Of a stretch of DNA of 64,000 nucleotides, positions 46,032 through 55,302 are shown in pieces. Position 1 is the first letter of the stretch, and each line of letters starts with the position of its first letter. Source of the DNA: Halobellus clavatus (GTDB lineage Archaea > Halobacteriota > Halobacteria > Halobacteriales > Haloferacaceae); assembly GCF_900107195.1 (NCBI RefSeq), contig NZ_FNPB01000001.1:1-64000 (forward strand). Direction: 5' to 3'. The position numbers were made by a program, and so were the translations under genes. The notes beneath the pieces were generated by a model. It searched no databases and was not told the DNA's origin. It saw nothing but the letters and a program-made list of their open reading frames with translations.

Positions 46032-47813
46032 CTACCGCTCGGGGAGGCCCGCGCCCTCGCCGCTGCGGTTCCGGTGGCGGATCACGTCGCCCTCGTAGAC
46101 GATGCCTCGCTCGGCGTGGAGCGTCAGCGTCGTCCCGGGCGACACCGCGTTCGGGAGGGGGGCCCCCGAAATCATCGGGAGTCCGAGTTCGCGCGCGACC
46201 AGCGCCGGATAGCCCGTCATTCCCGGGCGCGCGTCGACGATCCCGCCCAGTTTGGCCGCATCACCGTCGAACTCGCCGTCGAAGTTCGCCGGCAGCGAGA
46301 GGATCGCGCCGTCCGGAACGTCGGTCAGATCGCCGTCCACAGAGACGGCCAGCGGGCCGGAAACCCGACCGCCGACGACCTTGCGCCCGGTGGCGACGGC
46401 CTCGGCCGCGACGTGGAGTTTCAGCATGTTCGTCGTGTTCGTCCCCTCCAGTTCGGTCATCATACCGGAGAGGACGACGAGGGTGTCGCCGGAGGACGCG
46501 ACGCCGGCTTCGAGCGCGGCGTCGACGGCGTCGTCCATCATCTGATCGATGTCGTCGCGATAGGAGGAGTATTCGGAGATCACGCCCCACGAGAGCGCGA
46601 GTTGCCGGCGGACGCGGTCGGTCGGTGTGGTCGCGACCACCGGGACCGCGGGGCGGAACTTCGCCGTCTTCCGGGCGGTGTACCCCGACTCGGAGGCCGC
46701 GACGATGGCGCTCGCTCCGACGTCGCGCGCGAGGTACCGCGCCGAGCGGGCGAGGGCTTCGGTCCGAGAGTCCTCCTCGGAGTTTGGAATTCGTCGTTCT
46801 CTCCCCTCGGCGTACTCGTCGCTGGATTCGACCTGCCGGACGATGCGATCCATCGTCTCGACGACCCGGACGGGATCGTCCCCGATGGCGGTCTCACCGG
46901 ACAGCATCACGGCGTCCGTGCCGTCGAGCACCGCGTTCGCGACGTCGGAGGCTTCCGCGCGCGTCGGCCGCCGGGCGCGGACCATCGAGTCCAGCATCTC
47001 GGTCGCGGTGATCACGGGCGTCCCCGTCTCGTGACACCGACGGATGATCCGCTTTTGAATGATCGGGACGTCTTCCAGCGGCATCTCGACGCCGAGGTCG
47101 CCGCGGGCGACCATCACGCCGTAGGCGGCGTCGATGATCTCCTCGAGATTCTCGACCGCGCCGGCGCGCTCGATCTTCGCGACGATCGGGATGTCCGCCC
47201 CGAGGTCGTCGAGCGCGTCGTTGATCGTGTATATATCCGACGCCGAGCGGACGAACGAGGCCGCGACGAAGTCGGCCTCGGTCTCGGCGGCGACGCGGAG
47301 TTCCTCGCGGTCGGTCTCGGTGATCAGATCGATGTCGAGGTCGACGCCGGGGAGATTTACCCCTTTCCGTCCGGCGAGTTCGCCGCCGGAGTTGATCCGC
47401 GCGACGACGGTGTCGCCGTCGACGCGGCGAACGGTCGCTTCGATCCGCCCGTCGTCAAGGAGAATCCTGTCGTCGGGTTCGGCGGCCGCGATGGAGTACG
47501 AGAGACCCACGGTCTCCGGTGTCGCCTCCTCGCTCTGAACGAACTGAACGTCCGAACCGGTTTCGAGATAGATCGGCTCGTCTAACGGCGCGGTCCGGAC
47601 CTCTGGCCCCTGGAGGTCGACCATCGCCGCGACCGGACGCTCGGTGACCTCGTCGGCCGCGCGGATCCGCCGGATGACCTCCCGGCGGTGCGCTGGCGTC
47701 CCGTGGCTCGCGTTGAGCCGTGCGACGCTCATCCCCGCGTCCGCGAGTGCCCGGATCGTCGACTTCTCGTCGGACGCCGGGCCGAGCGTACAGACGATCT
47801 TCGCGTTTCGCAT
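46032..47813 (-). CDS. pyk: Pyruvate kinase with extra C-terminal domain
   Basis: A 593-residue pyruvate kinase, the last step of glycolysis (PEP + ADP to pyruvate + ATP). Core motifs are AKIVCTLGPASDEKSTIRAL, VARLNASHGT, IVAKIERAGAVENLEEIIDA, ARGDLGVEMP and VMLSGETAIGDDPVRVV. Beyond the usual about 475 residues is a PEP-utilising mobile domain: GLPMISGAPLPNAVSPGTTL and VYEGDVIRHR. ATG 47813 starts MRNAKIVCT, and a TATA element lies 27 nt upstream. A TrmB-like site overlaps that promoter. Confidence 0.96.
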   Translation of the reverse strand: MRNAKIVCTLGPASDEKSTIRALADAGMSVARLNASHGTPAHRREVIRRIRAADEVTERPVAAMVDLQGPEVRTAPLDEPIYLETGSDVQFVQSEEATPETVGLSYSIAAAEPDDRILLDDGRIEATVRRVDGDTVVARINSGGELAGRKGVNLPGVDLDIDLITETDREELRVAAETEADFVAASFVRSASDIYTINDALDDLGADIPIVAKIERAGAVENLEEIIDAAYGVMVARGDLGVEMPLEDVPIIQKRIIRRCHETGTPVITATEMLDSMVRARRPTRAEASDVANAVLDGTDAVMLSGETAIGDDPVRVVETMDRIVRQVESSDEYAEGRERRIPNSEEDSRTEALARSARYLARDVGASAIVAASESGYTARKTAKFRPAVPVVATTPTDRVRRQLALSWGVISEYSSYRDDIDQMMDDAVDAALEAGVASSGDTLVVLSGMMTELEGTNTTNMLKLHVAAEAVATGRKVVGGRVSGPLAVSVDGDLTDVPDGAILSLPANFDGEFDGDAAKLGGIVDARPGMTGYPALVARELGLPMISGAPLPNAVSPGTTLTLHAERGIVYEGDVIRHRNRSGEGAGLPER

Positions 47814-47822
47814 AGCAGGGTA

Positions 47823-47838
47823 TACTCGGTAGTGAGTT
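47823..47838 (-). promoter_or_regulatory. TrmB-like operator at the pyk promoter
   Basis: On the plus strand this is TACT-CGGTAGT-GAGTT; on the gene's strand it is AACT-N7-GAGTA. The TrmB consensus of Halobacterium is TACT-N7/8-GAGTA, so each strand has one mismatch. It sits just downstream of the TATA element, overlapping it by two bases, the position where TrmB represses. Confidence 0.65.
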
Positions 47839-52220: not shown

Positions 52221-54524
52221 TCACCGAACGGAGTCCAGCAGGAGCCGCTGTTCGACCCGCTTGACTTCGTGTTGGACGTCGCGGACGGCGTCGATGTTGG
52301 CCGATACCGACGAGACGCCCTTCTCGACGAGGAACTGGACCATCTGCGGCTTCGAGCCGGCCTGCCCACAGATGCTCGTCTTCACGTCCAGTTCGCGGCA
52401 CGTCTCGATGGTGTCGCCGATGAGCTTCAGGACCGCGGGGTGGAGTTCGTCGAAGCGGTTGGCGACCCGCTCGTTGTTGCGGTCGACCGCGAGCGTGTAC
52501 TGCGTGAGGTCGTTCGTCCCGAAAGAGACGAAGTCGATTCCCTCGGCGGCCATCGACTCGACTTCGAGCGCGGCCGCGGGCGTCTCGACCATCACGCCCC
52601 ACGTTCGCTTGGTGGGATCAACGCCGGCCTGTTGCATCAGGTTCCGGGCCTGAGCGACGTCCTCGGCGTCGTTGACGAGCGGGAACATCACCTCGACGTT
52701 GTCGTAGCCCATATCGAAGATCCGCTTGAACGCCTTGAGTTCGTGCGTGAACAGGTCGGGGCTCTCGAGCGAGCGACGGATGCCGCGATAGCCGAGCATC
52801 GGATTGTGCTCTTTCGGCTCGTCGCCGCCGCCCTCCAGTTGCCGGAACTCGTCCGTCGGCGCGTCGAGCGTCCGGACCCGCACTGGGCGGGGGTAGAACT
52901 CCTCGGCCGCCGTCCGAATCCCGTCGACGAGTTCGTCGACGTACGCGCGCTCGCCGTTCTCCTCGATGTACTTCGTCGGCGTCTGCCCGAGCGACAGGAC
53001 CATGTGTTCGGTCCGCAGGAGTCCGACGCCGTCTGCGCCGGTCGCTGCGGCGCGCTCGGCCGCCTCGGGGATCGAGACGTTGACTTTCACTTCCGTCGCC
53101 GTCATCGGTTTGACCGGCGTCTTCGGGCGCGCCTCCTCGATGGGCTCGAACTCGTCTTCCGGCGGTTCGGCCCCCTTGCGAACGGTTCCCTTGTCGCCGT
53201 CGATGGTGATCGGCTGGCCGTCTTCGAGCTGGCGCGTCGCCGATCCCGCGCCGACGACGGCCGGAACCCCGAGTTCGCGGGAGACAATGGCGGCGTGGGA
53301 GGTCATTCCGCCCTCGTCGGTGACGATCCCCGCCGCGCGCTTCATCGCGGGCACCATATCGGGCATCGTCATCTCGGTCACGATGATGTCGCCGTCGCCG
53401 ACCTGATCGAGGTGATCGAGCTTGGTGACGATCCGGGCCTCACCGGAGACGATGCCGGGGCTGGAGCCGAGCCCGCGGAAGAGCACGTCGTCAGACTCAC
53501 TGTCGTCGGCACCGTTGGCCGATCCGCCGTCTGCATCCGCGGCCGCCGTCGCGTCCGCTTCAGCGGATGCCTCGTCCTCCTCGTCGATGGTGGTGATCGG
53601 GCGCGACTGCAGCATATACATCTCGCCCTCGTGGACGGCCCACTCGACGTCCTGTGGCGTCTCGTAGTGGTCTTCGACGCGCTCGCCGAGTTCGACGAGT
53701 TCCTCGATCTCCTCGTCGGAGAGCACGCGGATGCTCCGCTTGTCGTCGGGAACCGGCTGCTCGATCGTCTCGCCGGTCGCCTCGTCTTTGAGCATCATCG
53801 TCTTCTTGTCCGCGACGGTGATCGTCTCCACCGCACCGCTCTCACGGTCGATGACGTAGTTGTCCGGCGAGACCGACCCGGAGACGACCGCTTCTCCGAG
53901 ACCCCACGCGGCCTCGATGATGATCTGTGATTCGCCCGTCGAGGGGTGTGAGGTGAACATGACGCCCGACTTCTCGGCGTCGACCATCTCCTGGACGACG
54001 ACCGCGATGTCGACCTTCTCGTGGGGGAAGCCCTGGCGGTTGCGGTAGTAGATCGCGCGCTGGGAGAACAGCGACGCCCAGCACTCCTTGACGCGCTCGA
54101 CGAGGGCGTCCGCCTGAACGTTCAGGAAGGTCTCCTGCTGGCCCGCGAACGACGCGTCGGGGAGGTCCTCCGCCGTCGCCGACGAGCGGACGGCGACGAA
54201 CCGTTCCCCGTCTCCGAGATTTCGGTACGCCGAGAGGATACCCTCTCTGACGTCGTCGGGGACCGGCGTCTCCATAATGAGTTCGTGAGCGCGCTCGTGC
54301 GCCTCGCGCAGTGCCTCGGTGTCCTCGTGGTCGACATCGACAGCCGCGAACAGTTCCTCGTCGATGCCGGCGTCCTCGATGAACTCGCGATATGTCCCGG
54401 CGGTCACTACGAACCCCGACGGGACGGGGAGCCCCGCGGCGGTGAGCTCGCCCAGCGAAGCCCCCTTCCCGCCGACGTTGTCGATGTCGGTGGACCGCAC
54501 GTCGTCCAGCCAAGCTACAGCCAT
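52221..54524 (-). CDS. ppsA: Phosphoenolpyruvate synthase
   Basis: A 767-residue PpsA, the gluconeogenic enzyme turning pyruvate and ATP into PEP. ATP-grasp: DNVGGKGASLGELTAAGLPV and AVRSSATAEDLPDASFAGQQ. Phosphohistidine domain: DEGGMTSHAAIVSRELGVPA. PEP-binding barrel: GVGLLRTEHMVLSLGQTP, DFVSFGTNDLTQYTLAVDRN and SICGQAGSKPQMVQFLV. An acidic insert (about 315-340 in DEEDEASAEADATAAAD) interrupts the linker. ATG 54524 starts MAVAWLDDVRSTDIDNVGGK. A TrmB-like site lies upstream of its TATA element. Confidence 0.96.
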   Translation of the reverse strand: MAVAWLDDVRSTDIDNVGGKGASLGELTAAGLPVPSGFVVTAGTYREFIEDAGIDEELFAAVDVDHEDTEALREAHERAHELIMETPVPDDVREGILSAYRNLGDGERFVAVRSSATAEDLPDASFAGQQETFLNVQADALVERVKECWASLFSQRAIYYRNRQGFPHEKVDIAVVVQEMVDAEKSGVMFTSHPSTGESQIIIEAAWGLGEAVVSGSVSPDNYVIDRESGAVETITVADKKTMMLKDEATGETIEQPVPDDKRSIRVLSDEEIEELVELGERVEDHYETPQDVEWAVHEGEMYMLQSRPITTIDEEDEASAEADATAAADADGGSANGADDSESDDVLFRGLGSSPGIVSGEARIVTKLDHLDQVGDGDIIVTEMTMPDMVPAMKRAAGIVTDEGGMTSHAAIVSRELGVPAVVGAGSATRQLEDGQPITIDGDKGTVRKGAEPPEDEFEPIEEARPKTPVKPMTATEVKVNVSIPEAAERAAATGADGVGLLRTEHMVLSLGQTPTKYIEENGERAYVDELVDGIRTAAEEFYPRPVRVRTLDAPTDEFRQLEGGGDEPKEHNPMLGYRGIRRSLESPDLFTHELKAFKRIFDMGYDNVEVMFPLVNDAEDVAQARNLMQQAGVDPTKRTWGVMVETPAAALEVESMAAEGIDFVSFGTNDLTQYTLAVDRNNERVANRFDELHPAVLKLIGDTIETCRELDVKTSICGQAGSKPQMVQFLVEKGVSSVSANIDAVRDVQHEVKRVEQRLLLDSVR

Positions 54525-54580
54525 TAACGTCTGTACGTCCTCAGATATCCCTAAAGTACTTTCCGAAGATTGCAACGATG

Positions 54581-54588
54581 AATTAAAC
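54581..54588 (-). promoter_or_regulatory. TATA element of ppsA
   Basis: GTTTAATT on the minus strand, about 60 nt before ATG 54524, predicting a leader of about 30 nt. Confidence 0.6.
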
Positions 54589-54589
54589 A

Positions 54590-54605
54590 TACTCGGATCC
54601 GAGTT
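54590..54605 (-). promoter_or_regulatory. TrmB-like operator upstream of ppsA
   Basis: Plus strand TACT-CGGATCC-GAGTT; gene strand AACT-N7-GAGTA. Its core ACTCGGATCCGAGT (54591-54604) is a perfect 14-bp palindrome. It abuts the upstream side of the ppsA TATA element, the position where TrmB activates. Same arms and spacing as the site at pyk. Confidence 0.65.
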
Positions 54606-54702
54606 TTCTTTTCCGGCCACCGACGCTCGGTGACCGACCGCGCCGGCGACCCGTCTGGCCGCGGGCGAGAAGTTCTTTAGTGACCCACCCTTCTGTTCGC
54701 CT

Positions 54703-55302
54703 GTGCTTCCGGAGTGGGTCTCGCTGTTGCCGCCGTGGCTCGTCTTCGGACTCCTCGGCGGCGGTGCTGCCTCCGCTGTCGCGGCCGGCGTCTTCCTGAT
54801 CGGCGGCCGTCTGTTCCCCGGCAAGCCGACGGCGTCTGGACAGCGAATCGACGGTCCGACGCGGCGACGCACCGAGATCCGTCGGTATCTCCGCACCGTC
54901 GGCGAACCCTTCACCGAGGACTACGAGCGACACGGTGAGACCGTCGAGTTCTACCTCCCCGAACGGGACGTCGCGCTCACGTTCGACGCGCAGGCGTACT
55001 TCCGGTTAGAGCGGAACGGTACCTACACCGTGCTGTGCGAGCACGAGATGCCGGTCCACGCGCTCGGCCGACGGTTGCCGTTCGAGGTCCCGACGCGAGA
55101 GACTGCGTCCACCGCGGGCGAGAACCCGGTCGACGAAGCGTTCGCGTATCTGGGGCTCTCACGGCCGGCGACGACCGAGGAGGTCAGAGACGCCTACCGG
55201 GACCGGGTCCTGTCGGTTCACCCCGATCACGGCGGCTCGCAAGCGGAGTTCAAGCGGCTGCAAGAGGCGTACGCGACCGCTCGCGAACACGCCGCCGGAT
55301 GA
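54703..55302 (+). CDS. Membrane-anchored J-domain protein
   Basis: A 199-residue protein from a GTG start. An N-terminal helix (WLVFGLLGGGAASAVAAGVF) is followed by a middle beta domain (FTEDYERHGETVEFYLPERD). The C-terminal J domain (about 140-195) has AFAYLGLSRPATTEEVRDAY, VLSVHPDHGG with the HPD motif, and FKRLQEAYATAREHAA. It would stimulate DnaK at the membrane. It is divergent from ppsA with a 178-nt spacer. Confidence 0.87.
   Translation: MLPEWVSLLPPWLVFGLLGGGAASAVAAGVFLIGGRLFPGKPTASGQRIDGPTRRRTEIRRYLRTVGEPFTEDYERHGETVEFYLPERDVALTFDAQAYFRLERNGTYTVLCEHEMPVHALGRRLPFEVPTRETASTAGENPVDEAFAYLGLSRPATTEEVRDAYRDRVLSVHPDHGGSQAEFKRLQEAYATAREHAAG

Follow-up and report, generated by a model that had tools for sequence, protein, structure and literature searches.

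A palindrome at the ppsA promoter of Halobellus clavatus is a predicted operator of the sugar-sensing regulator TrmB, paired with a site at pyk and widespread in Halobacteria

The ppsA and pyk promoters in the genome of Halobellus clavatus

The window, a 64,000-nucleotide stretch of the genome of Halobellus clavatus, carries the genes for phosphoenolpyruvate (PEP) synthase (ppsA) and pyruvate kinase (pyk) on the reverse strand, each with a palindrome at its promoter (Table 1). The ppsA product is 89% identical to its counterpart in Halobellus inordinatus. As read from the sequence, the ppsA palindrome is TACT-N7-GAGTT on the forward strand and AACT-N7-GAGTA on the reverse strand, and its perfect 14-bp form is nested inside a 16-bp form. 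An element of this kind with a perfect 14-bp core upstream of ppsA, and a pyk site with like arms about 6.7 kb away, had both been proposed in the original prediction, and both were borne out, the two centres being 6,767 bp apart. TACT-N7-GAGTW matches the window at these two places only, against 0.13 matches expected, and at least two matches were found in 1 of 100 shuffled windows. The ppsA operator sits in a divergent intergenic region (54525-54702) common to ppsA and a DnaJ-domain gene (54703-55302, forward strand), and TrmB might have an effect on the latter gene too.

Table 1. Features of the ppsA and pyk loci in the window, and the trmB gene of the same genome
Feature	Position	Strand	Basis or remarks
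ppsA, PEP synthase, 767 aa	52221..54524	-	NCBIfam PRK06464 and TIGR01418, above cut-off; ATG at 54524
Conserved ppsA core promoter element (BRE and TATA)	54551..54565	-	CGGAAAGTACTTTAG; alignment of 95 ppsA promoters
T-rich TTTAATT beside the ppsA palindrome (TATA of the original prediction)	54581..54587	-	promoter alignment
ppsA TrmB operator (predicted)	54591..54604	-	perfect 14-bp palindrome ACTCGGATCCGAGT; 16-bp form 54590-54605, TACTCGGATCCGAGTT on the forward strand
pyk, pyruvate kinase, 593 aa	46032..47813	-	NCBIfam TIGR01064, above cut-off
pyk TrmB operator (predicted)	47824..47837	-	ACTCACTACCGAGT; 16-bp form 47823-47838, TACTCGGTAGTGAGTT; directly downstream of pyk TATA
pyk TATA, TTTTTAA	47837..47843	-	about 27 nt before ATG at 47813; transcript presumably leaderless
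Haloarchaeal TrmB gene	G000:C20:41020-42078	-	NCBIfam NF047392, 583.5 bits against a cut-off of 500

Located some 30 nt ahead of the ATG, a class-wide consensus, CG(G/C)AA-N4-CTTTA, emerged from the alignment of ppsA promoters and is also present in palindrome-free genomes. Because of this short distance to the ATG, the ppsA transcript is probably near-leaderless. The palindrome had originally been thought to abut the ppsA TATA box, and the interval assigned to it (54581-54605) also took in the T-rich stretch. That arrangement did not hold, as the conserved core TATA lies 43 bp from the palindrome centre. The T-rich element is kept (as TTTTATT-like sequences) only in the window's own family, f1, in which it may serve as an additional TATA or have an accessory role. 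Measured upstream from the core TATA, the palindrome centre is at 42-46 bp in most families; in f4 and f7 the usual value is 38 bp, and one genome has 36 bp. The palindrome is thus placed upstream of the core promoter, as required of an operator at an activated gene, activation itself being assumed by analogy.

The regulator in question is encoded in the same genome (Table 1). TrmB of Halobacterium salinarum recognizes TACT-N7-8-GAGTA and acts as an activator at ppsA and as a repressor at pykA, both effects being reversed by glucose within minutes (PMC3794607; PMC4158304). The ppsA palindrome of the window agrees with this published operator in all but one outer base. H. salinarum TrmB (VNG1451C) is comparable to the system described here in its assignment to the TransRegTrmBHalo equivalog, in its targets ppsA and pyk, and in that these two genes lie a few kb apart. 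Binding in the absence of glucose and release in its presence are published for both H. salinarum and Haloarcula hispanica (PMC3794607; PMC10817205). The TrmB family regulators TrmBL1/Tgr of Thermococcales likewise activate from sites upstream of TATA and repress from sites downstream of it. Nevertheless, their operator, the TGM (TATCAC-N5-GTGATA), differs from the haloarchaeal site and was not matched by the ppsA palindrome. We also noticed that TACT-N7-GAGTA occurs without mismatch ahead of trmB, 33-48 nt from its ATG (L028 1501-1516 = G000:C20:42111-42126), which suggests that trmB is autoregulated in H. clavatus, like the gene reported in H. salinarum.

Conservation of the palindromes and joint loss with TrmB

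Promoters were compared in 80 named relatives and in a class-wide sample of 106 genomes, and TrmB was sought in the same 106. We scored a palindrome as present when at least seven of the eight arm letters of ACTC-N6-GAGT, the part of the ppsA palindrome conserved in the cross-genome alignment, were found within a fixed span; the shuffle background of this scoring was about 2%. Of 80 genomes with TrmB, 64 had the ppsA palindrome, against none of 15 lacking TrmB (Fisher's test, 3e-9, kinship ignored); for the pyk palindrome, the counts were 48 of 80 and none of 17, respectively (3e-6, kinship ignored). When counted by genus, the corresponding figures were 25/33 against 0/9 for ppsA (5e-5) and 21/34 against 0/9 for pyk (1e-3). 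Since related genomes are not independent, these counts are not either, and clean contrasts, in which the sister group of a lineage carries the sites, number only about four, independent losses being read from genus and family groups. For instance, all five TrmB-bearing genomes of Halobacterium in the sample have both sites, whereas the two without TrmB (G005 and G014) have neither. This group (g17) was recognized as Halobacterium through the plasmids of three members, which identify G069 as H. hubeiense, G125 as H. litoreum and G126 as H. noricense. Further contrasts of this type were found between g3 (including Halopenitus malekzadehii), which lacks TrmB and the sites, and the rest of its family, between g31 and the rest of f4, and between g15, g19 and g44 and the pair of g17 and g29 in f2. 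That the trmB gene and the sites have disappeared together in Halobacterium, Halopenitus and elsewhere argues for TrmB as the protein that binds them. As the core promoter element persists after the loss of TrmB (e.g., in G095 and G045), it is the operator that was lost, not the whole promoter.

Sixteen TrmB-bearing genomes have no clear ppsA palindrome, and many of them carry a diverged TrmB (45-66% identity). In two f8 genomes (G046:C15:95956-98025 and G075:C3:113822-115892), pyk is immediately preceded by trmB in the same orientation, with a gap of 124-145 bp. This adjacency counts in favour of TrmB as the regulator, but neither of the two has a palindrome at the ppsA or pyk promoter. Separately, the trmB frame is interrupted by one in-frame TGA in G026 (C1:641990-643039) and G046 (C15:95956-97002), so that the gene may be decaying in these genomes, or the assemblies may be in error.

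The spacing between the arms is narrowly defined. Among ppsA promoters, ACTC-Nk-GAGT occurred with k = 6 in 47 (16 genera), with k = 10 in 12, and with each remaining value between 0 and 14 in none or one; among pyk promoters, k = 6 was found in 35 and any other k in at most two. The central bases differ freely between genomes, as an operator would be expected to show. In Natrialbaceae (f4), the left arm at ppsA is mostly ATTC instead of ACTC (e.g., L104 and L112), and many promoters carry an extra ACTC 4 bp farther out, giving ACTC-N10-GAGT in 12 genomes of seven genera. Judged from its sequence, this arrangement is a lineage variant of the predicted operator. In the H. clavatus genome, ACTCG-N4-CGAGT was found at 30 sites, most of them in coding DNA by rough gene calls. 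Because exact matches are this common in coding DNA, comparing promoter and coding frequencies within one genome, which the original prediction had named as a refuting test, has low power. We dropped such single-genome pattern scans as proof, as the reversed-pattern control is unfair in a GC-rich genome and most matches are coding.

Position of the pyk palindrome around the TATA element

A T-run at -26 to -28 was found in nearly all palindrome-bearing pyk promoters, and allowed the position of the palindrome to be compared between lineages. Within the class sample, the five genomes of g1, which are Halobellus and one Haloquadratum-like genome, have the palindrome centre 10 bp downstream of TATA. 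The same holds for the named Halobellus pyk loci, except for Halobellus rufus, in whose pyk promoter the palindrome is lost, and for the Haloquadratum loci, in which the left arm is degenerate. In all other lineages with a measurable pyk palindrome, the site is located 20-26 bp upstream of TATA, mostly 22 bp; it is upstream in Haloferax, and about 22 bp upstream in 11 of 13 Halobacterium genomes examined. The window therefore differs from the layout of Halobacterium. The proposal that ppsA and pyk carry their operators on opposite sides of TATA stands for the Halobellus/Haloquadratum group and fails elsewhere, where the pyk site is upstream as well. Thus, this layout fits the clade of the window, not the switch in general. 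As a separate observation, the pyk palindrome of Halorubrum has decayed to a half operator, ACTCGGGAGCGACG, in many genomes (e.g., G013, G029 and G040), and the same genomes keep TrmB and the ppsA site.

These data bring up the idea that distance rather than side sets the sign of TrmB action, with sites about 40 bp upstream of TATA activating (ppsA), those about 22 bp upstream repressing (pyk), and the pyk operator of the Halobellus/Haloquadratum group relocated across TATA. We regard this idea as tentative, and lean slightly against it. If it is the case, the relocated pyk operator alters how repression works, or even its sign, with the regulator and its ppsA partner unchanged. By analogy, H. 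salinarum would have pyk repressed from 22 bp and ppsA activated from about 43 bp upstream of TATA, provided that it is laid out like its congeners.

TrmB as the reader of the palindrome, and alternatives

The palindrome at the ppsA promoter is almost certainly, judging from these comparisons, a docking site of TrmB, and the whole explanation, in which it is the ppsA operator and is paired with the pyk site in a switch set by sugar, is very probably correct. When sugar is scarce, a TrmB dimer would bind the ppsA palindrome, whose centre is about 43 bp from the core TATA on the upstream side, and help to recruit the transcription machinery, so that PEP synthase is made for gluconeogenesis. Simultaneously, TrmB on the pyk site, between the TATA and the start codon, would block initiation at the pyruvate kinase gene. 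Sugar would release TrmB and reverse both effects. Both the activation of ppsA and the repression of pyk in H. clavatus are assumed here from the related systems. That a single TrmB operator is common to the two genes, as originally predicted, is supported by the encoded TrmB, the joint loss and the chromatin immunoprecipitation (ChIP) data of Har. hispanica (PMC10817205).

In Har. hispanica, the ppsA promoter (HAH_2323) is a motif-bearing TrmB (HAH_1548) ChIP peak (PMC10817205). We recognized G086 as the strain used in that work from a 4-kb segment of its C2 replicon that matches pHH400 without a difference. At ppsA, this genome has ACTCGAAATCGAGT, the same palindrome as in H. clavatus, 46 bp from the core TATA. 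Unlike the window, neither G086 nor the other Haloarcula genomes examined have a palindrome at the pyk promoter, and control of pyk by TrmB was reported to be absent in Har. hispanica (PMC10817205). Furthermore, ppsA expression was unchanged in the trmB deletion strain though the promoter is TrmB-bound (PMC10817205). Activation at ppsA is therefore not universal, and the outcome of binding may differ between species.

In one alternative, TrmB is bound but represses ppsA or leaves it unaffected, the T-rich stretch being the real TATA and the palindrome lying over its BRE. The T-rich element is indeed conserved beside the palindrome in f1, and the motifs at TrmB-repressed genes of Har. hispanica overlap the BRE (PMC10817205). 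Nevertheless, the core element near the ATG, some 30 nt away from it, is kept across families, including genomes that have neither the T-rich element nor the palindrome, and TrmB activates ppsA in H. salinarum (PMC3794607); we therefore consider this alternative unlikely. Binding by another protein, GfcR, alone or in competition with TrmB, is still less probable. GfcR is a phosphoribosyltransferase-type sugar regulator that activates pyk and the gene for GAPDH I in Haloferax volcanii (PMC11519228), and the palindrome upstream of TATA at Haloferax pyk is in a spot suited to an activator. No GfcR binding motif was found in the literature covered. The loss of the palindrome, however, follows the loss of TrmB, which is the regulator traced across the genomes, the ppsA promoter of Har. 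hispanica is occupied by TrmB, and both genes depend on TrmB in H. salinarum (PMC3794607). A loss of GfcR along with TrmB would, for its part, leave the same pattern. Finally, the palindrome could be a product of chance, or a coding or compositional artefact, as ACTCG and CGAGT are common words in a GC-rich genome and their exact matches are mostly coding. This is contradicted already by the comparison, in which place and spacing are conserved over many genera, the centre is variable and the loss is joint with that of TrmB, and we give it practically no weight beside the TrmB operator.

A flux switch between ppsA and pyk was already published for H. salinarum (PMC3794607), and the switch as such is therefore not new. 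What this analysis adds is the class-wide conservation and joint loss with TrmB, the relocated pyk operator and the corrected ppsA core promoter. We found no earlier report of the class-wide co-loss or the relocation in our partial coverage of the literature, and claim no priority. The comparison provides independent genomic evidence that TrmB reads the palindrome, and widens the range of the switch from two model species to most of Halobacteria. The natural series of geometries (36-46 bp upstream, about 22 bp upstream and 10 bp downstream of TATA) makes a position rule for archaeal activators and repressors testable.

Two further sites were noticed in the H. clavatus genome. One, ACTCGAAACCGAGT, precedes the start codon of a gene for an ADP-forming acyl-CoA synthetase by about 45 nt (L011 1502-1515 = G000:C15:29063-29076) and a TATA-like GGATTTAAG by about 25 bp, a geometry as in pyk promoters elsewhere; the gene is possibly a further target repressed by TrmB. 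The other, ACTCGCCCCCGAGT, precedes the gene for a malic enzyme (L147 1501-1514 = G000:C27:59469-59482) and is about 77 nt from its ATG, a spacing close to that of the ppsA site; this gene is a possible further target of TrmB activation.
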